From the NCBI RefSeq assembly GCF_000970285.1, contig NZ_CP009516.1, forward strand, positions 3,761,036-3,825,035: a DNA stretch of 64,000 nucleotides, read 5' to 3'. Within the stretch, counting starts at the first letter, position 1. Every line of letters begins with the position of its first letter. The position numbers were made by a program, and so were the translations under genes. The DNA is from Methanosarcina horonobensis HB-1 = JCM 15518. GTDB taxonomy: Archaea; Halobacteriota; Methanosarcinia; Methanosarcinales; Methanosarcinaceae. The notes below the pieces were generated by a model that was not told where the DNA came from, searched no databases, and saw only the letters and a program-made list of their open reading frames with translations. This document shows, one piece after another, positions 33,798 to 58,737 of the stretch.

Positions 33798-34958
33798 ATG
33801 AAAATTGCCTTCGTATACGATGCTGTCTATCCCTGGATCAAAGGAGGCGCAGAAGTGCGCATTCATGAGCTGGGGAAGCGGCTTTCTTTACAGGGACATG
33901 AAGTGCATCTTTTCGGGATTAAATGGTGGGAAGGAGAAGATGTTTTTCAGTATGAAGGCATGACCCTTCACGGCGTCTGTAAAGCCAGGAACCTGTACGT
34001 AAACGGCAGACGTTCGATTTCTGAGGCTCTTGTGTTCGCTGTAAGGCTTTTCCCGGCTCTCATGAGAGAAAGGTTCGACATTATTGATGTAAGCGTATTT
34101 CCCTATTTTTCCTGTTTTACCGTAAAAGCAATTTCAATTCTGAAAAAGGCTCCTGCAGTATTCACATGGCATGAAGTATGGGGGGATTACTGGTATGAGT
34201 ATCTTGGAAAAAGGCAGGGCTTTTTCGGGATTGTGATAGAAACAGCAGTTGCAAAAATATCTAAAAATAATATTGCAGTCTCTGACTGGACAAAAAGAAG
34301 ACTTGAAGCCATTGTGGAGACGGGTGGAGAGATAGCAGTTCTGCCCAATGGGGTCGACCTGAAATTAATCTCTGAAATCAAACCAGCTGGTCAGGTTTTC
34401 GCGGGCAACCAGGGAGATAAAATTTATGATATTATCTTTGCAGGCAGGCTCATAAAAGAAAAAAATGTTAATGTTTTGATAAAAGCAGTCTCCCTGTTAA
34501 AAGAAGGTTTTCCTGAGATCTGCTGCTGCATCGTTGGAGACGGTCCAGAAAGGAAATCTCTCGAGAAACTTGCCCAGGAGCTCGAGGTGCAGGAAAATAT
34601 GAAATTTGAAGGGTTTCAGGAGTACAGAGCACTAATTGGAAAAATTAAGGCTTCAAAGGTGCTTGTGCTTCCTTCTTCACGGGAAGGCTTCGGAATGGTT
34701 GTAATTGAGGCTTTTGCCTGTGGAGTGCCTGTAGTGACTGTGAGAGAAAAATATAACGCAGCACAGGGGCTTGTTGAAGATGGGGTTGATGGATTTGTTG
34801 TGAGGCTTGATGAGAGGGAAATTGCGGAGGCTGTGAAAAAAATATTTGAAAAAAACTCGGAAAACAAAAAGACCTCAGAAGCGGCATTTAATAAAGCTAA
34901 GAAGTATGACTGGAATGAAATAGTTGAGAATATCCTTTTGAAATATGAAAATGGATAA
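33798..34958 (+). CDS. GT4 glycosyltransferase
   Basis: A 386-residue retaining glycosyltransferase of family 4 (GT-B fold). N-terminal AFVYDAVYPWIKGGAEVRI starts domain one; in domain two are IIFAGRLIKEKNVNVLIKAV (nucleotide sugar site), PSSREGFGMVVIEAFACGVP (E-x7-E). The sugar is unknown. Directly linked to the GT2 gene, probably in the same operon. A long non-coding stretch follows. Confidence 0.9.
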   Translation: MKIAFVYDAVYPWIKGGAEVRIHELGKRLSLQGHEVHLFGIKWWEGEDVFQYEGMTLHGVCKARNLYVNGRRSISEALVFAVRLFPALMRERFDIIDVSVFPYFSCFTVKAISILKKAPAVFTWHEVWGDYWYEYLGKRQGFFGIVIETAVAKISKNNIAVSDWTKRRLEAIVETGGEIAVLPNGVDLKLISEIKPAGQVFAGNQGDKIYDIIFAGRLIKEKNVNVLIKAVSLLKEGFPEICCCIVGDGPERKSLEKLAQELEVQENMKFEGFQEYRALIGKIKASKVLVLPSSREGFGMVVIEAFACGVPVVTVREKYNAAQGLVEDGVDGFVVRLDEREIAEAVKKIFEKNSENKKTSEAAFNKAKKYDWNEIVENILLKYENG

Positions 34959-46046: not shown

Positions 46047-49000
46047 TCAAGATGAAGCATTTCCTAACTGAAACAACACATTTTCATATCTTTTTGCAAT
46101 GTTTGACCAGCTAATCTCTTTTATCTTTCTCTCAGCAGAGTTGGCAACTTCTTTCTGTAATTTTTCGTTTTCATATAATTTCATAATCCCCTTTTTGATT
46201 TCATCTGGAGAACACCCAGGGATTTTATAAACTTCTTCTTTAAATTCACTAAATATTGGAATATCTGTTACGATAACAGGCCTTTGAGAAGCCAGAGAAA
46301 ACCTTATAGCGCCACTAGCTCCCTCTTTTGTATCTTTGTAAGGCATTACAACGATGTCGGAAGCCTGTAACAGGTAAATAATTTCCTGTTTTTCCAAAAA
46401 ATCCGTAAAGAATATAACGTGTCTATTAATTCCTAAGTTACTAACTTCTTTCTTACAGCTTTCGTAATATTTTACTGAGATCTCATCTGGAAATATGGAA
46501 CTTACAACCAGAAAAAGCAAGTCAGGATACTTCTTTATAATTGAAGGTAACGCCTGTATCGTTTCTAATACTCCTTTATGTGGCAGGAGAAAGCCAAAAG
46601 TAGAGATTATTTTCGAATTGTTGAAAATTCCTTTTTTAAGTTCTTCTTTTTCATTGTTGTCGAAAACTACATTTCCATGGGGAATTTTAATTACATTGTC
46701 AATAATTCCTTTTTCTGATAATTCCCTGACGTCACTTGATGAATGCACCCAGATTTTGTCTACAAGTCTTAGCTCTTTTTTGATAGAGTCTAATTTAACG
46801 GGTTTGTTCATAAATTCGGTATTACCTACAGAATGAAAAGTGATTATCAATTTTATTCCCTTCTCTTTTAGCTTTTTGACCATATCAGCCAGAGAGTTCA
46901 GTTCAAAGAACCCAAAATTGAACTGAACGTGGATTACATCCAGATCGCTTTCCAATATTTTATTGCAAAGAGTGCTCAGGTCATCGAAATATGGTTCCCA
47001 GCAACGAATTACGTTATCTCCATCCATTGTTATAAGATCTTTAGAACTTACTTTGTTTGCAAAGATTTTAACTTCCTCTGGGTTTCTTAAATTGCTAACC
47101 AAATATTTTGTGTACTCTGCGATACCACATTTTGTATTCCAGGTAGAAACAATACCCAGTTTTGGTTTGAATCTAACACTTTTCAGAAACTCGATCGTTT
47201 TCTTTGCTGAGACATCCCAGTTAAAATTGTTTTTGATATTGGCATACGCTGTTTCTACTTTTGCTTTTACTTCATCGCTATTTTTATTTTCGTACACGTG
47301 TCTCATCAAAGTAGCCAAATGGTTTACATCAGGCTCTGCCCACAATGAATCAGCCATAGTATATTGCTTTTTTAAATGCGTAATAGAAGGCTCAAGCTTA
47401 AAATCAACTAAGTATGAAGTCTTTTCATTACAGAAATCAAGATGACCGCTGTAGTTGGTGGTAATTACAGGAACTTTGCAAAGCATTGCTTCTGCCATAG
47501 TAAGACCAAAACCCTCACCTCTTGTAGGTGAGACATAATAATTGCATTTTTTATAGAGTGATACCAATTCATTATCAGAAATATCGCGATCAATGTGAAT
47601 AACTTCAGGACCATTAGGTTTCACAATGTTTTTTATTTGCTCAGCAATATTATTGTGAATATTAGGAAACGTCTTCACAACTAAACAAACGTCATCTTCT
47701 CTAGAAAACTCTTTTGTGTAGGCCTTAAGGAGAACATCAATGCCCTTCCTTGGAAAACCGGAACCTACATTGAAGAATAAGAATTTTTTATTAGTATGTA
47801 ATTCCGCAGGCAACACATCTTTTTCAAAATGATCAATCTGGACGCCTGTAGGAATAACTCCAATCCTGGTATTTATGCCTGAGTTGATCAAAACGTCTTT
47901 AACAAAATTTGTAGGTACTAGAATCCCATCCAGAGAATTGAGATCATCGATCCATTCCTGAGGGAGGGCCGATTCTTCCCAGAAAAAGTAGATAAGATTA
48001 TATCTCCCGTTCATATCTTTTGTTCTGGGAGGATAAATGTTTCTTATTGAAAAGAAAGGAAATTTCGGGTCATTTTTCCATAATTCCCTGACTCTTTTGT
48101 CTTTTATGCTTCCTTTTTGTGGGATGTAATCTCCTGTACCTGTTGTTGCAAAAAGTGAAACGTCTTGATCAAGTTTATCTAATGCCAGAGCTAAATTTCG
48201 GTTTATTATAGACAAACTATAAGAATCTTCAAACGTGCCTTCGATCCTTATGGACGGCTTGGAATTAATTTCTTTAAAATCAGTATCAATATAATTCTTC
48301 AAAATTTCAGATATATTCTTTTTGTTGAAAAACTCCAATCTTTTAGTTTGCTTATCGACAACTTTTTTTCTTAATGTTTTATCTTCAACCAGCAGGTTGA
48401 TCATTTCCGCGATTTCTATATAGTTTTTTTCGTTAACTAAAATCCCTGACTCACCAAGCGTTTGTGGGATGGCTGTGCAGTTGTTTGCAATAATTGGAAT
48501 TTTGAAATGCATACTTTCAAGTAAAGGTACGCAGAATCCTTCATGTTCGCTCATTGCCAAAAAAATATTTCCCACTTTGTAGTAGGAAACCAGTTCATCC
48601 AGATTTATGTGACCAGTGAAGTATAGATTATCCAGATTTAATTCTTGAACAAGATCCCTCAGGTAAGTATAATAGTTTTCCATTCCATTGTATGAACCTA
48701 CTAAAAGTAATCTGGATCTTTTGTTAATATATTTATTATAATAATAGAAACTTTTTATAGCATCCTCTATTTTTTTATTAGGACTGATCCTGCCGACAAC
48801 TAATATGTTGACAAAATCATCATCATACTTGCTTATTACTTTTTTATTTGGCTGAACATTAAAGTTATCGAAGTTAATCAAGTAAGGAAGAACTGAAGTT
48901 TTATTGAAACCAGCATCAATGAGATCCTGTTTATTAAACTCGGAATCGGCAAGCGCTACATCTACAATATTTCTTATTTCCGTGCTAAGTTCTTGATGTC

Positions 49001-49352
49001 CAATTTTAGTTGAATACTCATAATCAGAGTTGATATTATGGAAAAAGTGGGGTGGAGTAATGTTATGGTAAAGTAAAATTTTTTTATCCGGCAACGATTT
49101 TACGAAATTTAGAAGTTCAGAGCCATATCCTATAGAATAATGGATGATAAGAATATTATTTGGAGAGCTGATTTTGCGATATTCATTGTATTGTTTCACA
49201 GTGCTGCTCATTTTTGGATGAATGTATTGACCATATATGTTAGATTCATACCCCAGCTCTCTCAGAACTGTCCTTATTTCCAGCATTTCATTACCAATAG
49301 CATCCCCATAACTTACTGAAGGATGGATTTGATGAACTTGGAATATTCTCAT
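46047..49352 (-). CDS. Three-domain GT4 glycosyltransferase, 1101 residues
   Basis: One long protein with three GT4 modules. Module 1 (about 1-365) starts MRIFQVHQIHPSVSYGDAIG and has VVGRISPNKKIEDAIKSFYY and AMSEHEGFCVPLLESMHF. Module 2 (about 370-720) has VGSGFPRKGIDVLLKAYT and SPTRGEGFGLTMAEAMLC. Module 3 (about 730-1101) starts KLGIVSTWNTKCGIAEYTK and has EGASGAIRFSLASQRPVI, where the second Glu of E-x7-E is missing. Multi-domain GT4 proteins such as WbdA act as polysaccharide polymerases adding several linkages. Located next to Wzm/Wzt-like genes, this is a candidate polymerase; linkages unknown. Confidence 0.88.
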   Translation of the reverse strand: MRIFQVHQIHPSVSYGDAIGNEMLEIRTVLRELGYESNIYGQYIHPKMSSTVKQYNEYRKISSPNNILIIHYSIGYGSELLNFVKSLPDKKILLYHNITPPHFFHNINSDYEYSTKIGHQELSTEIRNIVDVALADSEFNKQDLIDAGFNKTSVLPYLINFDNFNVQPNKKVISKYDDDFVNILVVGRISPNKKIEDAIKSFYYYNKYINKRSRLLLVGSYNGMENYYTYLRDLVQELNLDNLYFTGHINLDELVSYYKVGNIFLAMSEHEGFCVPLLESMHFKIPIIANNCTAIPQTLGESGILVNEKNYIEIAEMINLLVEDKTLRKKVVDKQTKRLEFFNKKNISEILKNYIDTDFKEINSKPSIRIEGTFEDSYSLSIINRNLALALDKLDQDVSLFATTGTGDYIPQKGSIKDKRVRELWKNDPKFPFFSIRNIYPPRTKDMNGRYNLIYFFWEESALPQEWIDDLNSLDGILVPTNFVKDVLINSGINTRIGVIPTGVQIDHFEKDVLPAELHTNKKFLFFNVGSGFPRKGIDVLLKAYTKEFSREDDVCLVVKTFPNIHNNIAEQIKNIVKPNGPEVIHIDRDISDNELVSLYKKCNYYVSPTRGEGFGLTMAEAMLCKVPVITTNYSGHLDFCNEKTSYLVDFKLEPSITHLKKQYTMADSLWAEPDVNHLATLMRHVYENKNSDEVKAKVETAYANIKNNFNWDVSAKKTIEFLKSVRFKPKLGIVSTWNTKCGIAEYTKYLVSNLRNPEEVKIFANKVSSKDLITMDGDNVIRCWEPYFDDLSTLCNKILESDLDVIHVQFNFGFFELNSLADMVKKLKEKGIKLIITFHSVGNTEFMNKPVKLDSIKKELRLVDKIWVHSSSDVRELSEKGIIDNVIKIPHGNVVFDNNEKEELKKGIFNNSKIISTFGFLLPHKGVLETIQALPSIIKKYPDLLFLVVSSIFPDEISVKYYESCKKEVSNLGINRHVIFFTDFLEKQEIIYLLQASDIVVMPYKDTKEGASGAIRFSLASQRPVIVTDIPIFSEFKEEVYKIPGCSPDEIKKGIMKLYENEKLQKEVANSAERKIKEISWSNIAKRYENVLFQLGNASS

Positions 49353-49381
49353 AAATTACACCGTTCACTGTCTATGGCAAT

Positions 49382-50596
49382 CTATTCTGTTTTGTCGGAA
49401 ATGACGCACACTATTTGCGTATCTTCACGATAATACTCCAATTTTTCAATGTTCAATCCACCATCTTTGAGGATTACTTCCCATTCTTCAGTAGTCATTT
49501 TTCGCTCATTCCCAAACTCACGCTTCGGGTAATGTATCGAAGGAACAGAGAACACAACATATTTTGCCGCTTCAAGCTGTTTTGAAAGCATTTTTACGAT
49601 TCCTTCGTTATCGAAGTGTTCCAGTGTACCCTGTGAAAAAGCTACATCGAAATACTTATGTTTAAATTGATTTAAACAGTTTGCATCCAACATGACAAAG
49701 TTAGCATGTCCACCCAATCTCCTATTAGTGGTTATTGCATTAAAAATCACATTTATATCGTTATCTAACCCCATAACTTCATATTTTTGCCTAGAAAAAT
49801 AAATTGACATGGTAGCAGTACCTATACCAATTTCTATCAGCTTAGGTACCCTATTTCCCGACGCTTTCTGTGCATATTCCTCTACTACTGAAATAAAATG
49901 ATTATGATGATTTACGTTTCCTAACAGGTCTTCTTCGGAGATCTCTTGACTATAGTATTGCCCCCATGCAGTAGACGCTAATGCATTTTTGGAAGAAGCC
50001 AGGAAATCAGATGTTACATTTTTCATGATCTTATCCAGTTCAATAAATTTAGCATCCAAGGCATTAATTTTTGAATCCAGCTCCCTGTTCTTTTCAGCGA
50101 CTTTTTCATATTCCCCAAGGAGCTTCTCATTTATTTTCAAAGATTCTTCATAGTTCCCAAAGAGCTCTTCGTTTTTAGTAAGTAATCTCTCGTATTTACC
50201 GGATAGTTCCTCATTTTTACCTAGAAGTTCCGTAAGAATTCTACAGGTACACGCGTTTACCTCGCTTTGCTGAGCAAAAGCTGGATCTACATATCTCTTA
50301 ACTTCACCGTTTACCAGATTTCGACCTTTTACCAAAAAGGATCCTGTAACATGACGATGTGAACTGATCACATAACTTCTGTTCTGAACATCATAATTTG
50401 AAGTTAAATATTCCAGATCTTTAGCTGTCATTCCATTCACCGCAGGGGAAATTTTTTTCTCGGAGTTTTTAATCAGCGAGTTTAGGATCGGTTCTGAGTA
50501 AGCACCTGTTTTTTTTCTACTCTGAATATTCTCTCTTATCCTTTCCAAAACTTCTTTTGCATTAATTTCGTCATCGCGAATATCAAATGTACTCAT
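49382..50596 (-). CDS. Coiled-coil SAM-methyltransferase next to Wzm/Wzt
   Basis: A 404-residue protein in three parts. Residues 1-120 have an N-terminal segment with DIRDDEINAKEVLERIRENI common to Wzt-linked methyltransferases. Residues 120-200 are a predicted coiled coil of 14-15-residue repeats (LLGKNEELSGKYER, LLTKNEELFGNYEE, LKINEKLLGEYEK...). Residues 230-404 are a methyltransferase domain: KLIEIGIGTATMSIYF and YFDVAFSQGTLEHFDNEG. Bacterial WbdD caps O9a chains and uses a coiled coil to measure length; the same parts here are in a different order. Role in capping is inference; the methyltransferase fold is clear. Confidence 0.8.
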   Translation of the reverse strand: MSTFDIRDDEINAKEVLERIRENIQSRKKTGAYSEPILNSLIKNSEKKISPAVNGMTAKDLEYLTSNYDVQNRSYVISSHRHVTGSFLVKGRNLVNGEVKRYVDPAFAQQSEVNACTCRILTELLGKNEELSGKYERLLTKNEELFGNYEESLKINEKLLGEYEKVAEKNRELDSKINALDAKFIELDKIMKNVTSDFLASSKNALASTAWGQYYSQEISEEDLLGNVNHHNHFISVVEEYAQKASGNRVPKLIEIGIGTATMSIYFSRQKYEVMGLDNDINVIFNAITTNRRLGGHANFVMLDANCLNQFKHKYFDVAFSQGTLEHFDNEGIVKMLSKQLEAAKYVVFSVPSIHYPKREFGNERKMTTEEWEVILKDGGLNIEKLEYYREDTQIVCVISDKTE

Positions 50597-50597
50597 A

Positions 50598-51842
50598 TCA
50601 GGCCGCCCTCTCTGAACTTAATTCCCAGGTACATGAAAGACCCAACACACCTTCCTCATATCCGGTTGGAATAATGGAGAATGAATATTGTTTATCCTTG
50701 TGATCTAGCGGAACATAGTTCTTGGATTGTACCAAGTCTACAGTCATCAAAAACTTTCCTGTTTGCAAAGGTACTTTTTCAATCAGCAAATCTATATAGC
50801 CATTTCCCGAAATACTATTAATTGGATAATTTTTAAGGAAAGTATTTGTCCCAAAAAGATGTTTACCCCTTTCGGAATACAGCGCAATACCAAAGACGGG
50901 ATCCTCTATACTTTCCTTTGAATTGTAAAAGATGCGTACTTTCATAGGATCAAGAGAATTAAAATTAGTATTTGCATGGTCAAATTTATCATAAAATTTA
51001 ACGTCAACGATTTCTGCTATTTTTTCAGTAATCTGGTGGGAAGTAAGACCATGTTGATCGTTTTGTACTTTGTTTTCACCTGATTCAGGTTCATCATTTT
51101 TCGAAGAAGAGGTTTCCACTTTTGCGTAAACGTACTTATCGATCACTTCAGTTGGATCACCTATTGCAACTTGTTTTCCTTTATTCAAAAGCAAAACTTT
51201 ATCACAGAATCTCCTCACTGCCCCAAGATCATGGGAAACAAAGACTATAGTAATTCCTTTTTTCCTGTACTCGTTCAAGACATCCAGACACTTCTGCTGG
51301 AACTCCATATCTCCAACAGCCAGTACTTCGTCCATCAAGAGGATTTCCGGATCGGTTTGAATTGCTGTTGAAAAGGCAAGCCTTACCTGCATACCCGATG
51401 AAAAATTTTTTAACTTTGTATCCCTGAAATTCTCAAGTCCTGCAAACTTAAGAATATCATCCATTTTATCATTAATTTCTTTTTTTTGCATGCCCATTAT
51501 AGTTGCATATATTTTTATATTCTCTGAAGCAGTGAGGTCCGATTGAAAACCAACTCCAAGTTCAAGAAAAGGAGTCAGCTTCTTAAGGGCAGTAACACTC
51601 CCTGCTGAAGGCCTGAGTATGTTTGCAATAATTTTTAAGAGAGTACTCTTTCCACTTCCGTTCTCTCCGATGATCCCGAGAGCTTCCCCTTCTTCAACTA
51701 TAAAATTAATATCAGTAAGGGCATGGAAAGTTTCATATGTGGGAGGCTTGAAAGCCCCAGTCAAAGTCTCAAAGATAGTGGTTCTTTTTTGATGGGGTAT
51801 GCGAAATGTCTTATGCAAATGCTCAACTTTAATCGCAGTCAT
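50598..51842 (-). CDS. Wzt-like ABC polysaccharide exporter ATPase with C-terminal glycan-binding-type domain
   Basis: A 414-residue ABC ATPase of the Wzt/TagH group. ATPase: [40 protein letters not shown] and ILLMDEVLAVGDMEFQQKC. The C-terminal domain (about 260-414) has KIAEIVDVKFYD, VFGIALYSERGKHLFGTNTF and SGNGYIDLLIEKVPLQTGKF, matching the Wzt C-terminal domain that recognises the capped end of a glycan in bacteria. Start ATG overlaps the permease stop by one base. Together with the permease it forms an exporter. Confidence 0.92.
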   Translation of the reverse strand: MTAIKVEHLHKTFRIPHQKRTTIFETLTGAFKPPTYETFHALTDINFIVEEGEALGIIGENGSGKSTLLKIIANILRPSAGSVTALKKLTPFLELGVGFQSDLTASENIKIYATIMGMQKKEINDKMDDILKFAGLENFRDTKLKNFSSGMQVRLAFSTAIQTDPEILLMDEVLAVGDMEFQQKCLDVLNEYRKKGITIVFVSHDLGAVRRFCDKVLLLNKGKQVAIGDPTEVIDKYVYAKVETSSSKNDEPESGENKVQNDQHGLTSHQITEKIAEIVDVKFYDKFDHANTNFNSLDPMKVRIFYNSKESIEDPVFGIALYSERGKHLFGTNTFLKNYPINSISGNGYIDLLIEKVPLQTGKFLMTVDLVQSKNYVPLDHKDKQYSFSIIPTGYEEGVLGLSCTWELSSERAA

Positions 51843-52621
51843 CAGATTTCCTCCGCAAATCTGGGTTCTAACCTGGAAAAAATAATGTATCCTACAAGAA
51901 GGAAAACTATTGATGAAAGAAACATAAACAGAAGATCTTCTGTTTTCGCTGGAGAAGAATAAATAATAGTATCTCTTGCAGAAATAATAACCCGTGCGAT
52001 TGGATTCAAGAGAATAAATCTCTGTAGATTTTTAGGAAATGCATCGAGTGTATACAGTATAGGAGTTGCAAAATATCCAATCTGCAAAAGAACCTGCCAG
52101 ATAAACTGTACATCCCTGTAAAATACATTTAACGCGGCAAGTGCTAAGGAAAGACCAAGTGAAATGACAAACAGGAAAATCAGGATAAGCGGCACATACA
52201 CCAAGTTGATGGAAACTGGTACTTTGAAAAATACCATAAATACTATAAATATTAAAGACTCGAAGATGCTCATAAGCAAAGCTGTAATACATGAGGAAAT
52301 AACGAAGATGTCACGCGGGAAGTAAATTTTCTTGACTATGCTCGCTCTTCCTACTATGGAAAACATTCCGATAGTTGTCGCTCTGCTCATAAATCCCCAT
52401 AATACGATTCCAAGAAGCAAAAACAGCTGGTAATACTCAACCTGAACCCTCATTAAATTTGAGAAAATAAAGTACAGAACTACAAGCATAAGCATGGGTT
52501 CCAGAAGTGACCAGAAGTAACCCAGTATAGAATTTTTGTATCTTAGTTTAAACTCGCTCCATGCCAGTTGCCAGATAAGGTTCCGGTAGTCATAGATCTC
52601 TTTCATGCGTTTAACAATCAT
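51842..52621 (-). CDS. Wzm-like ABC polysaccharide exporter permease
   Basis: A 259-residue ABC-2 type permease: [31 protein letters not shown], five or six transmembrane segments, and [31 protein letters not shown], which is characteristic of polysaccharide exporter permeases. ATG 52621 overlaps the stop of the GT4 gene by 11 bases; the Met at residue 6 is an alternative. The partner ATPase follows directly. Confidence 0.93.
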
Positions 52622-53690
52622 TATTTACCACATTTTTCATCTTTTCACTAAAAATCGAAAGATCAAAGCGTTTTGCCTGTTCAAGACAAGCATCTCTGTA
52701 ACTTTTGGGTTCACTGGATATGAGTTTGACAGCCCCTATAACGCCGGGAACATCCGCATATATAAGAAGACCTGTTTTTTCGGTTACGGTCTCTTTAAAT
52801 CCGCCTTCGTTCACAGCTACAACAGGTTTTCCACTTGCCATTGCCTCCACCGGTGTCATCCCGAAGTCCTCATCCATAGCAGTGCAAATGAGACCTTTAC
52901 AGCGAGAGTAAAGATCAAGCAACTCTAGCTCAGAGACTTCCCCACGTAGTTTAACATTATCCGGTAGATTTTTAATAATATTTTTTGCATAACTTTTTGC
53001 ATGGTCTCCTTCTGAATACCCTCCGACAATAATAAGTTTTTCTTCAGGCATTTCCCTGAAGGCATCGATCTGGAGTTCTACTCTTTTCTCAGGATAGAGG
53101 CGATTTACAGAAAGCCAGAAATCTCCATACTCATTACATGTGAATTTTGTAGTCTCAACCGGAGGATAGATAACCTCAGCGTCCCTGTGGAAATACATTT
53201 TAACTCTCTGCAATGTATTCTCCGAGTTAGTTGCAATTTTACAGACGTGAGAAAGGTAATATTCAGAAATCGGTCTGTGAAACCTGACCCAGATCCTGAA
53301 GAAAATTGAAACAAAAAATGACTGTCTTGTCAGAAAGGTATCGTAAAGGTCATAGAAAGCCCTTGTAGGAGTATGACAGTAGTATAAATTTGGTTTATGT
53401 TTTTTTGCAGCAAAATGCGCCCAATTTCCGGAAAAAATAAAGAAATCATACTTTTTTGAGAAATCACATGTTGCAAAGAGGAAAGAAGCTGAGATTTGCT
53501 TTAAAGGAGGCACCTTTGGAGTCTTTCCAAGGCTTATAATATGTATATCGGAATAACCCATTTTTTTAATGGATTCGAGATTTAAGTCTGTAGTGATAAC
53601 ATCAGCGTTAATGTACTTCGCGAGCATCAACACCAGTTTTTCTCCACCGCCAATGGCTCCGAAGTAATCGTGAAAGATAGCTATTTTCAT
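52611..53690 (-). CDS. GT4 glycosyltransferase (mannosyltransferase-like)
   Basis: A 359-residue GT4 transferase starting [20 protein letters not shown]; it contains [19 protein letters not shown], and [21 protein letters not shown] (E-x7-E). The N-terminal [12 protein letters not shown] resembles mannosyltransferases that start a chain, such as WbdB/C-type enzymes, from memory only. First gene of the minus-strand cluster; its ATG (53690) was chosen over 53702 because the GT4 fold begins there. Confidence 0.88.
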
Positions 53691-53702
53691 GTTTATTCTC
53701 AT

Positions 53703-54066: not shown

Positions 54067-55089
54067 TTGACAAAGGTTGCACTGATCACAGGCATAACAG
54101 GCCAAGACGGAACATACATTTCAAAACTTTTATTAGATAAGGGGTATGTAGTACATGGAATAAAGAGAGAGTCTTCTACCAGAGCAGAAGAAAAGGACAA
54201 ACAACAGAAAAATGCAAACCTTCACTTTCATTTCTGTGACATGACCGACTATTCGAAGCTCTTAAGAATTATTAAAGATGTATGTCCGGATGAGATCTAT
54301 AACCTGGCGGCTCAAAGCAATGTACAGGTCTCTTTTGACCGACCAGAATATACAGCAGAAATTAATGCACTCGGTACCCTTCGTCTCCTTGAAGCCATAC
54401 GCACTCTTGGGCTGGAAAAGAAAACAAGATTTTTTCAGGCTTCCACCGGAGATTTGTTCGGAAACTCACTGGATATCCCGCAAAATGAAAATACTCCCTT
54501 TCACCCCAGAAACCCTTACGCAGTGTCCAAATTATATGCTTACTGGATCGCCATAAACTATCGTGAAGCTTATAATATGTTTGTCTGCAATGGTATCCTG
54601 TTTAATCACGAATCTCCAATAAGACCCGAAATTTTTGTTACGAGAAAAATTACCAGAGCCGCGGTCAGAATAAAAAAAGGATTTCAAGAGAAATTGTACC
54701 TTGGAAATCTGGGTGCAAAAAGGGACTGGGGATTTGCAGGAGACTACGTTGAAGCTATGTGGCTGATGTTGCAGCATGATAAACCGGATGATTATGTGAT
54801 TGCAACAGGTGAAACACATTCAGTACAGGAAGTGGTGGAGTTTGCGTTTAGAGAGGTTGGGCTTGAGATCAAATGGGAAGGAGAAGGGCTTGAAAAAAAA
54901 GGAAGAAACGCCGCAACAGGTGAGATTATGGTTGAGGTTGATCCCCAGTTTTACAGGCCTCTAGAGTCAAGCTTATTAGTTGGAAATCCTTCAAAAGCCA
55001 GCGAAAAACTCGGATGGGTTCCAAAGGTAAACTTTGAAGAACTGGTAAAAATGATGGTCAAAAATGACCAGGAATTAGTAAAATGTTAA
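54067..55089 (+). CDS. GDP-mannose 4,6-dehydratase-like SDR protein, divergent paralogue
   Basis: A 340-residue SDR similar to GDP-mannose 4,6-dehydratase. It has [20 protein letters not shown] at the start, [16 protein letters not shown], Tyr-x-x-x-Lys [10 protein letters not shown] and [25 protein letters not shown]. Two differences from true Gmd: the catalytic segment reads ASTGDLFG (Asp for Glu), and the loop with RIDHLxQDPH after strand two, used for NADP and tetramer contacts, is missing. It could act as a reductase on the Gmd product, or have another nucleotide-sugar substrate. Start TTG 54067 follows GGTGAT. Confidence 0.8.
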
Positions 55090-55117
55090 AACACTTGTTT
55101 TAAATTGCGTGGTAAAA

Positions 55118-56149
55118 ATGTCTAAAGTCGCATTACTTACAGGAGTAACCGGTCAGGATGGAGCATACCTTGCCGAACTCCTGTTGAATAAAGGATATAC
55201 TGTGCACGGTATGCACAGAAGATCATCTCTGAGTAATACCGGACGTATAGATCATCTCCTGCAAGATCCCCATCAAGAAAGCTCTAATTTTTTTTTGCAT
55301 TACGGAGACCTGACTGATTCAGCAAATGTTTTCAGGCTTATAAAGGACATCGAGCCTGATGAAATTTACAACCTTGGCGCCCAAAGTCATGTCCAGGTTT
55401 CTTTTGAGACCCCGGAGTACACTGCAAATTCGGATGGGCTTGGAGCCCTTCGTATTCTGGAGGCAATAAGAATTCTCGGACTTGAAGACAAATCTAAGTT
55501 CTATCAGGCCTCAACCAGTGAGTTATTCGGAAAAGTACGTGAAGTTCCACAAAAAGAAACAACTCCTTTTTACCCCCGGAGTCCTTATTCAATAGCTAAA
55601 TTGTATGCTTACTGGATTACCATAAACTACCGTGAAGCTTATGATATGTTTGCCTGTAACGGTATCCTATTTAATCACGAATCTCCTTTAAGGGGAGAAA
55701 CTTTCGTCACCAGGAAGATTACAATAGCTGTATCAAAAATAAAAAAAGGTCTTCTGGATAAACTTTATCTTGGAAACCTTAATGCAAAACGTGACTGGGG
55801 ATTCGCAGGTGATTACGTAGAAGCTATATGGCTCATGTTAAATCAGGATAAACCCGATGATTATGTTATAGCGACGGGGGAAACTCACTCAGTGAGAGAA
55901 TTTACAGAACTTGCATTTAGAGAAGCAAACATTGACATCGAATGGGAAGGGGAGGGAGTTAACGAGATAGGCAGGGACGCTGACAGTGGAAAAGTACTCG
56001 TAGAAGTTGATCCTATGTTTTACAGACCAACTGAAGTAGACCTATTGATAGGAGATCCTTCAAAAGCCAGGGAAAGACTTGGCTGGAAAACAAAAGTAAG
56101 TTTTGAAGAACTAGTCAAAATGATGGTAAAAAGCGATATGAAGAAATAA
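55118..56149 (+). CDS. gmd: GDP-mannose 4,6-dehydratase
   Basis: A 343-residue SDR that converts GDP-mannose to GDP-4-keto-6-deoxymannose, a precursor of rhamnose, fucose and related sugars. It has [39 protein letters not shown] (NADP/tetramer loop), ASTSELFG with catalytic Thr/Glu and [10 protein letters not shown]. The first in-frame codon is GTG 55109, but ATG 55118 is the usual start. It follows the paralogue by 28 bases, probably in one operon; the pair look like an old tandem duplication. Confidence 0.93.
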
Positions 56150-56238: not shown

Positions 56239-58737
56239 GTGAGTGATATGGAGAAATCAGAAAAAATCGAAAAAGACAAAAATGCACAAAGCACGTTTTC
56301 AAAAAATATCTTTGTGCTTGGAGCTATACTTTTAGCCAGCTTCATCATGCGCATGCTCTCCTATGCTTCACTTACTGCAGATGGAGGCATTACCTTCACG
56401 GGCTATGATGAGTTTTATCATATGCGGCGCATTCTTTATACAACCTTCAATTTTCCCCATTTTCTTAACTTTGATACCTATATCAACTATCCTTATGGTT
56501 TTGAGGTTGGGTGGCCGCCATTCTTTGACCTTCTAGGTGCTCTTCTCGCACTAGTTCTTGGAGGAGGACAGCCTGATACGCACACCGTCGAATTTGCAGG
56601 CGCTATCTTGCCGGTACTGCTCGGGATCCTGACAATAATCCCGGTTTATGTTATAGCCGCTTCGGTCTTTGACAGAAGAACAGCACTTGTCGGAGCTTTT
56701 GCTTTTGCTGTTCTGCCTGCCCATGTATACGTATCCCGCTTCGGGACAGTTGACCATCACGTAGCTGAAGTCTTTCTCTCAACAGTAGCCTATGCCTTTT
56801 TCATACTTGCCTTAAAGCTGGCAGGAGAGAGTAAACTTTCACTAAGTTCACTTAAAAACGTATCCTCAGATAAAAAACTCATAAGTCCCCTGGTTCTTTC
56901 AGCAGTCTCAGGGCTCTTTTTCTCCCTTCTCATCTTCACATGGGTAGGAGCTCCTGCCTTTGTCAGTTTTATTGTCCTTTACGCACTAGTTCAGACAACA
57001 CTCGATATTAAAGCAGGAAAAGAGTCGGATTACTTATTCATCTGCTCGGCTGCAACTCTGTTTGCAACACTTCTGTTTACCATTCCCCTCTCAGCAGGAG
57101 CAGTCCGCCAGGGCCTGGAAATGAGTGCGATGTACCTTTCCTGGTTCCAGGTAGTGTATGTGCTGATCATGCTTGCCGGCATATTCCTTCTCTGGGGCTT
57201 TTCAGCGTTTGTTTCAAAGAAAGGGATGGACTGGAAGTATTACCCTGGCGTTTTAATTTTCATTTCCATCTCAGGGATCCTTTTCCTGAGAATGTTTTCC
57301 GCCGAATATTACGCTTTCATTGTCGAAGGATTGAGGTTCTTTTCGGGTAAAGGTGAATACATAAGTACAATTGCCGAAGCAGTGCCCCTGTTTTTGACCG
57401 GGCAGGGAAAACTCACCTTCTCGGCAGTACTGGGAAGTTTCGGGCCTTCTTTCCTGGTTGCACTGGCAGGATTTTTCCTGCTTATCCTTGAATCAAAAAG
57501 CGAAAAATCAAAACCAGAATGTATATTCTTCCTTGTGTGGACACTTTTTTATGCATATCTTGCCCTTTCCCAGAGGCGTTTTACCTATCTTTTTGCAGTA
57601 AATGTCTCGATTCTTACTGCTTATACTCTCATGATTCTGCTTGATTCTCTTGATTTCGAGAAAGAGGTAAGAAAACTGGTAAAACCCGGAAAGAAAACAG
57701 AGAAGAATTCCGAATCTATTCCTCAAACAGGAAAAAAAGTATCATTAAAAACCAGATCAAAGTCAAAAATCAGACAGGGAACAGAATCAAAGGGCAAGAC
57801 TGCCGAACCTGATTATTTTAAACTTGTTTCTGGAGTTGCACTGATAGGATTTGTCTTTGTATCATCTATATGGATAGGTGTTGCTTTTGCAAAAGATGCA
57901 ACTTCAATTGGTCCAGAATGGCAGGATTCCCTTGAATGGCTTGAGGCTTCCACTCCTGAGACCTCCTATTACCTTGAACCTTCGGAAACTCCTGAATACG
58001 GAGTCCTTAGCTGGTGGGACTACGGAAACTGGATAGTGTATGTAGGAAAGCGGCCTGCAGTCTCAAATAACTTCCAGACAGGAGTAGAAGATTCTGCAAA
58101 CTTCTTTTTAACAGATTCCGAAGAGGAAGCAAAAACAATAATTGAAAAGCTCAATATAAAATACATAATAACCGACACTCTAATGGCAGAAGGCAAATTC
58201 AGTGCCATTACCGAGATAGCAGGAAAAAATATCAGCGACTATTATGAAATCGGAACAGTGAAAGAAAATACAGGCCTCAGAACCGTTGTAACTCCCAAAA
58301 AGGCTTTTCTACATACCCAGATATATAAGCTTCACAAACTTGACGGAACATCTCTTGGAAATTTCAGGCTGGTCCACGAGAGTGCTATGAATACCACAGA
58401 GAATGAAAGCGGTAAAGAAAATACTGTAAAGGTATTCGAATATGTCAAAGGAGCCACATTTTCAGGCACCGTTAACCCTAACGAGACAGTGATGGCAACA
58501 CTTGAGCTCAGATCAAACACAGGCAGGACATTCGTGTATCAGAAAGGTGACGTAGCTGACGAAAAAGGTCTGTTTGAGATAACTGTCCCCTATTCAACTG
58601 AGAGCACAGGAAACGGAGTTCATGCAACATCCGACTATTCGCTGACCGCAGGAGAAAACTCAACTCTCACTGAAGTTCAGGTAACTGAAAACGATATTTT
58701 GAACGGGAGCAGAATAGAGTTAAACATCCCTGACTGA
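56239..58737 (+). CDS. aglB: Oligosaccharyltransferase AglB (STT3 family)
   Basis: Membrane enzyme that transfers the lipid-linked glycan to Asn in N-x-S/T sites on the outer face. The 832-residue protein has about a dozen transmembrane helices and a C-terminal soluble domain. Catalytic and metal motifs: YDEFYHMRRI, GTVDHHVAEVF, and WWDYG in VLSWWDYGNWI. It starts GTG 56239, with ATG 56248 also possible. It is adjacent to the gmd genes and to the glycan exporter, and probably uses the glycan made by the neighbouring genes or another pool. Confidence 0.95.
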   Translation: MSDMEKSEKIEKDKNAQSTFSKNIFVLGAILLASFIMRMLSYASLTADGGITFTGYDEFYHMRRILYTTFNFPHFLNFDTYINYPYGFEVGWPPFFDLLGALLALVLGGGQPDTHTVEFAGAILPVLLGILTIIPVYVIAASVFDRRTALVGAFAFAVLPAHVYVSRFGTVDHHVAEVFLSTVAYAFFILALKLAGESKLSLSSLKNVSSDKKLISPLVLSAVSGLFFSLLIFTWVGAPAFVSFIVLYALVQTTLDIKAGKESDYLFICSAATLFATLLFTIPLSAGAVRQGLEMSAMYLSWFQVVYVLIMLAGIFLLWGFSAFVSKKGMDWKYYPGVLIFISISGILFLRMFSAEYYAFIVEGLRFFSGKGEYISTIAEAVPLFLTGQGKLTFSAVLGSFGPSFLVALAGFFLLILESKSEKSKPECIFFLVWTLFYAYLALSQRRFTYLFAVNVSILTAYTLMILLDSLDFEKEVRKLVKPGKKTEKNSESIPQTGKKVSLKTRSKSKIRQGTESKGKTAEPDYFKLVSGVALIGFVFVSSIWIGVAFAKDATSIGPEWQDSLEWLEASTPETSYYLEPSETPEYGVLSWWDYGNWIVYVGKRPAVSNNFQTGVEDSANFFLTDSEEEAKTIIEKLNIKYIITDTLMAEGKFSAITEIAGKNISDYYEIGTVKENTGLRTVVTPKKAFLHTQIYKLHKLDGTSLGNFRLVHESAMNTTENESGKENTVKVFEYVKGATFSGTVNPNETVMATLELRSNTGRTFVYQKGDVADEKGLFEITVPYSTESTGNGVHATSDYSLTAGENSTLTEVQVTENDILNGSRIELNIPD

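Follow-up and report, generated by a model that had tools for sequence, protein, structure and literature searches.

A putative O8-like operon for capped, ABC transporter-exported glycans in the archaeon Methanosarcina horonobensis

Glycans that are capped, measured in length and exported by an ATP-binding cassette (ABC) transporter are known as bacterial O-antigens and S-layer glycans, and the question arises whether archaea, which lack lipopolysaccharide (LPS), might rely on the same principle. This question is raised by an operon of five open reading frames (ORFs) embedded in a stretch of 64,000 nucleotides (hereinafter, the window) of the genome of Methanosarcina horonobensis HB-1 = JCM 15518 (contig NZ_CP009516.1, positions 3,761,036 to 3,825,035), where it runs on the minus strand from 53702 down to 46047. 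We suggest, with a probability of about 0.7, that this operon represents an archaeal ABC transporter-dependent system for the assembly and export of capped glycans, of the kind found in E. coli O8. This would extend the principle to LPS-free cells and suggests that capped surface glycans of measured length are made in archaea as well; a literature search, incomplete in its coverage, retrieved no description of such a system in archaea. The coordinates of all five ORFs were confirmed, and successive ORFs overlap or are separated by gaps of 1-29 bases, an operon-like arrangement. The first-pass annotation of this DNA had read a family 4 glycosyltransferase (GT4), Wzm, Wzt, a methyltransferase with a coiled coil (hereinafter, MTcc) and a three-module GT4 in a single minus-strand run, and both the ORF positions and the Pfam matches agree with it. 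The operon and its parts are the following:

52611-53702, minus strand: WbaZ/WbdC-like GT4, probably the adaptor/first mannosyltransferase (Pfam Glycos_transf_1, 2e-24)
51842-52621, minus strand: Wzm, polysaccharide ABC transporter permease (PF01061, ABC2_membrane, 1e-21)
50598-51842, minus strand: Wzt, ATPase with a C-terminal carbohydrate-binding domain (ABC_tran 1e-24, PF14524 6e-23)
50616-51017, minus strand: Wzt residues 276-409, glycan-binding domain of jelly-roll type (strands of the AlphaFold, AF2, model; 53-locus alignment)
49382-50596, minus strand: MTcc, 404 residues, N-module plus coiled coil plus S-adenosylmethionine (SAM) methyltransferase, the proposed terminator/ruler
50234-50587, minus strand: N-module of MTcc, residues 4-121, proposed anchor/docking part (alignment)
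50009-50284, minus strand: coiled-coil helix of MTcc, residues 105-196 (repeats, AlphaFold)
49385-49978, minus strand: class I SAM methyltransferase of MTcc, residues 207-404, of the divergent cluster 1
46047-49352, minus strand: three-module GT4 polymerase, 1101 residues, similar to WbdA of O8 (Pfam, blastp)

The similarity to the O8 system embraces the whole exporter. In blastp comparisons, E. coli O8 Wzm aligns with the window Wzm over its full length (expectation value, E, 5e-33), and O8 Wzt aligns with the window Wzt at 32% across the full length (E 1e-61). The Wzt_C match (PF14524, 6e-23) spans Wzt residues 272-398, and the sequence match with Aquifex aeolicus Wzt (8dku, E 1e-66) extends into the C-terminal domain. 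In the AlphaFold model of the window Wzt this domain is beta-rich, and the best Foldseek and VIA matches of the model are the full-length A. aeolicus WzmWzt (8dne/7k2t/8dku, the last being O-antigen-bound), which is the closest solved structure. The glycan-binding nature attributed to this domain from the letters alone survives, therefore, the structural check. Only one Wzt with such a C-terminal domain is encoded in the 5.0-megabase host genome.

The glycosyltransferases of the operon tell a similar story. The long GT4 aligns with O8 WbdA at 28.8% over 996 residues (blastp, E 6e-142), and far more weakly with the two-module WbdA of O9 (E 1e-13); it embeds three Glycos_transf_1 stretches (Pfam 6e-59), with EX7E motifs at residue 271 in module 1 and residue 613 in module 2. 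No EX7E motif was found in module 3 (residues ~745-1101), which may have another catalytic arrangement or be inactive. For the small GT4, the nearest sequence in the PDB is 2f9f, described as "first mannosyl transferase (wbaZ-1)" (E 1e-68), which we take to be an A. fulgidus protein.

The comparison with the annotated O8 and O9 clusters allows the choice of a bacterial model. The gene order wzm-wzt-MT-polymerase (MT, methyltransferase) is shared with E. coli O8 and Klebsiella O5, as are the three-module WbdA homologue, the full-length Wzt and Wzm homology and the lack of a kinase. The E. coli O9a and Klebsiella O3 systems, where WbdD is a kinase-methyltransferase, are alike in overall logic and gene order, but they differ in the WbdD kinase, which MTcc lacks, in the two-module WbdA of O9 and in weaker sequence matches. 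The first-pass annotation had taken O9a as its model; the type of assembly and export module stands, whereas the better model is O8. Given a methyl-only terminator and a three-module WbdA in O8, the missing kinase is not odd. The archaeal operon departs from O8 in belonging to cells without LPS and in having AglB and GDP-mannose dehydratase genes as neighbours.

The association of these genes is not restricted to the window. Scanning 84,980 genomes for the most conserved motif of the N-module, bacterial chromosomes being covered by the exact archaeal motif only, revealed 35 loci, all from methanogens or their relatives and distributed over several orders (Methanosarcina, Methanolobus, Methanohalophilus, Methanomethylovorans, Methanoculleus, Methanoregula, Methanotrichaceae, Methanocella, Methanoperedens and others). 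At 33 of them a Wzm-Wzt pair, the Wzt having its C-terminal domain, lies within 3 kilobases (kb) and on the same strand as MTcc; at the remaining two the contig is short or ends near the locus. In a larger, overlapping set Wzt stands beside MTcc in 44 of 46 cases, the exceptions being one additional copy (L054) and one disrupted gene (L067). The occurrence of the coiled-coil methyltransferase away from Wzm/Wzt, which would have spoken against the functional link first proposed, is thus not what this adjacency reveals. The order wzm-wzt-MT-polymerase holds across the archaeal loci, and in most of them the WbaZ-type GT4 is found immediately upstream of Wzm. A search for the archaeal N-module in 72,556 plasmid records gave no useful match, nor did one for a bacterial version of it, and at six loci of bacterial plasmids no N-module was detected in the genes next to Wzt.

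The most peculiar component is MTcc. Its class I methyltransferase is matched by Pfam at residues 254-339 (5e-8), with the E-x-G-x-G motif intact; Pfam and NCBIfam scans found no kinase domain in it, and 404 residues leave no room for one. Its relatives have in common residues 1 to ~121 (the N-module), followed by a spacer of variable length and then by the methyltransferase. The N-module is a previously undescribed conserved domain with 11 invariant columns in a 20-sequence alignment (motif Y-x-I-x-S-H...G...R...GE-x-x-R-Y...Q...N) and no significant relative in Pfam or the PDB. In WbdD the methyltransferase (and kinase) comes first, followed by the coil and by a C-terminal anchor and polymerase site (PMC11231755; PMC3482155). 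This order, which in the O8 terminator reads MT-coil-C-terminal anchor, is reversed in all archaeal forms, so that the coil precedes the catalytic domain; both this position and the lack of a kinase had been noticed beforehand and are borne out by the domain analysis. The reversed order also occurs in 7 of the 9 proteins with an O8-type methyltransferase that were sampled from bacterial plasmids, such as those of Pseudomonas asturiensis (L157) and Pseudorhizobium flavum (L158), the genes of which adjoin Wzt or glycosyltransferases; hence, its presence in proteobacteria implies that the reversal as such is no archaeal invention. A comparison of the N-terminal parts of four of these bacterial proteins with the archaeal N-module detected no relationship (hhalign probability 0.5%), and the archaeal N-module and its setting are distinct among the proteins sampled.

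As to the spacer, the self-similarity of the window coil peaks at lags of 14 and 7 residues (p 0.005 vs shuffles), and AlphaFold predicts residues 105-196 as one unbroken helix of 92 residues, that is, ~14 nm at 1.5 A per residue; repeats and helix together are in agreement with the coiled coil initially recognized. Across 59 distinct proteins, frequent peaks of spacer self-similarity fall at 7, 14, 11, 15, 19, 23 or 26 residues, all of them coiled-coil-compatible, and a minority of the proteins has no significant repeat. The idea that all spacers follow a strict heptad was rejected, because the mean hydrophobic periodicity is ~3.65 residues and several arrays have 11- or 15-residue units; the 11- and 15-residue periods point to what would be non-heptad coiled coils. 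At several loci the spacers are organized as DNA arrays of 33, 45, 57 or 78 bp, with 2 to 7.5 copies and 80-100% match, among them 33 bp x 7.5 (92%), 45 bp x 4.6 (96%), 78 bp x 3.9 (97%) and 57 bp x 3.1 (94%); the window spacer is repetitive at the protein level and contains no DNA array. The lengths of the spacer cores vary widely among loci. Tandem repeats of varying copy number are what an adjustable ruler would be expected to look like, and are suggestive of one, short of proof; coiled-coil rulers do have bacterial precedents (PMC11231755). The archaeal spacers would thus represent a natural series of rulers varying in length and repeat type. At four loci (L105, L111, L126 and L072) the spacers consist of near-identical units of 11, 15 or 26 residues.

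As for the sugars, the cap, the control of length, the export and the fate of the product, we infer the following scheme. The WbaZ-type GT4 would start the chain on a polyprenyl carrier, and the three-module GT4 would extend it from GDP-activated sugars, namely mannose and probably a 6-deoxyhexose such as D-rhamnose, as the neighbouring dehydratase pair suggests. The N-module might place MTcc near the membrane or the polymerase, with the rigid coil holding the methyltransferase at its far end, so that only chains reaching the latter would be methylated at their non-reducing end; the number of tandem repeats in the coil would, in this way, set the chain length. The cap would end elongation and, once recognized by the C-terminal domain of Wzt, would open export via Wzm. 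The adjacent AglB would probably pass the exported chain to surface proteins.

Some data weigh against this scheme. The role of the N-module as an anchor is a guess, because the module is modelled at low confidence (AF2 pLDDT, the per-residue confidence score, ~40-75); the hydrophobic moment of its conserved segment 82-104 reveals no strong amphipathicity and gives membrane attachment no support. The spacer of one locus (L065) is almost nil. The profile of the methyltransferase cluster to which the window belongs matches neither O8 nor O9 WbdD at E 10. Once shared ancestry was taken into account, no co-evolution of the whole Wzt C-terminal domain with the methyltransferase was found (partial r 0.06, a value equalled or exceeded in 108 of 500 permutations). 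Lastly, the adjacency of AglB to the operon is confined to Methanosarcinaceae and a few others, so that AglB is not a necessary partner.

The nearly spacer-free locus would be easily accommodated if MTcc methylated sugars within the chain, or the carrier, and the coil served to oligomerize the enzyme rather than as a ruler. This idea would also fit the loci with two MTcc proteins or with a version of ~1,100 residues embedding three methyltransferases, which exceed the need of one cap, and the finding that Geobacillus WsaE methylates in vitro regardless of chain length (PMC2943079). It does not account, however, for the constant position of MTcc beside a Wzt with a domain of cap-binding type, for tandem-repeat spacers differing greatly in length among otherwise similar proteins, or for the O8-family methyltransferase domain of most relatives, and we consider it improbable.

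The nature of the cap is a different issue. The archaeal MTcc methyltransferases form two clusters: cluster 2, embedding 47 of 53 loci, and cluster 1, embedding six loci including the window. The profile of cluster 2 matches O8 WbdD at E 1e-33 and O9 WbdD at E 5e-6; judging from these profiles, cluster 2 belongs to the O8 WbdD methyltransferase subfamily and the window enzyme does not, so that the same chassis carries different capping enzymes. In A. aeolicus the C-terminal domain of Wzt binds 3-O-methyl-mannose, and Thr346, Ala348 and His350 belong to the residues that form the pocket or contact the cap (PMC9445017). The corresponding motif T-V-A-x-H is retained in 31 of the 53 aligned archaeal Wzts; the window Wzt and its sister have TVDLVQSK at this position, having lost the His, and neither has the YDW motif found in most archaeal relatives. 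It is possible, then, that within the O8-like scheme the lineage of the window swapped its capping enzyme, that the cap is no longer an O8-type 3-O-methyl sugar and that Wzt adapted to it. This sub-variant, to which we assign rather less than an even chance, is favoured by the separate six-locus cluster and by the trap loop of Wzt (QSKNY in the window), since loops of the form QSK/QNR-x-Y occur in 4 of the 6 cluster-1 loci and in none of the 47 others (Fisher p 5e-5, or 5e-4 with sister loci merged). Nevertheless, this pattern was spotted post hoc on few independent cases, two cluster-1 loci (L074 and L084) do not have it, and the whole-domain co-evolution test reported above was negative.

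A further question concerns the destination of the glycan. On the side of Wzm opposite to Wzt, beyond the small GT4, the following genes are found:

54067-55089, plus strand: GDP-mannose 4,6-dehydratase paralogue with an STGD motif, possible reductase
55109-56149, plus strand: GDP-mannose 4,6-dehydratase with the canonical motif (TIGR01472, 592 bits, cut-off 415)
56239-58737, plus strand: AglB oligosaccharyltransferase, possible transferase for the exported glycan (TIGR04154, 1e-239)

The cluster had been described from the outset as adjoining AglB, and AglB is indeed there, two genes away, the two dehydratase-type genes standing between it and the operon. In the paralogue, STGD replaces the active-site motif STSE of its neighbour, and it is perhaps a reductase making GDP-D-rhamnose. 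In 23 of 46 loci, most of them from Methanosarcina, AglB is divergent and 1.2-4.1 kb away from Wzm, and it adjoins the operon in nearly all members of this genus; outside Methanosarcinaceae, the operon mostly lacks an AglB within ~10 kb. Methanosarcina S-layer proteins are decorated with sugars, presumably mannose or glucose (PMC5744192). In the Geobacillus stearothermophilus S-layer cluster (WsaE, Wzm/Wzt, WsaB), one of the cluster's own transferases is proposed to link a methyl-capped, ABC-exported chain to the S-layer protein (PMC2943079), even though that system is O-linked and uses WsaB rather than AglB, its methyltransferase is fused to the N-terminus of a glycosyltransferase and its rhamnan is built from rml-type precursors. 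By analogy, the AglB neighbourhood, the S-layer sugars and the Geobacillus case make transfer by AglB plausible.

The same machinery might as well yield a free or lipid-anchored surface polysaccharide, AglB being nearby as an effect of the clustering of glycan genes, and this falls only just short of an even chance. It fits the scarcity of AglB near the operon outside Methanosarcinaceae, and the host genome itself has three further tandem AglB genes outside the window (G000:C1:935155-941409), and flippase genes of Wzx type lie close to them, at 916 and 925 kb. This region is apparently a second, Wzx-served N-glycosylation locus, and it implies an N-glycosylation independent of the window locus. 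A free or lipid-anchored product is opposed by the divergent AglB of the 23 loci just mentioned, by the lack of any Wzx-family gene found in the window and by the attachment to the S-layer proposed for Geobacillus. A fuller version of the O8-like scheme, in which a capped, coil-measured polymer is exported by Wzm-Wzt and given to AglB, the S-layer has long N-linked chains of set length and a modular terminator chassis exchanges its methyltransferases, is tentative and, taken as a whole, rather doubtful; if it were true, N-glycosylation would be fed by an ABC exporter of O-antigen type and not by a flippase of short oligosaccharides.

Some minor observations concern the variability of these loci. 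Between positions 34000 and 54000 the G+C content of the window is 0.29-0.37, compared with 0.40-0.46 in much of the remainder, and many glycan genes lie there; the two features together suggest an exchanged island. The MTcc version of ~1,100 residues, with extra methyltransferase domains before the N-module, was found at L046, L048, L049, L054, L058, L059, L061 and L066; the one example scanned, L117, has three methyltransferase domains in one chain. Two Methanosarcina genomes encode two MTcc proteins: at L059 (7944-15743) both are near one Wzt, and in the other genome the second copy (L054) lies ~60 kb from the main locus. At L067 (5777-8099) MTcc is split into short ORFs, that is, a pseudogene.

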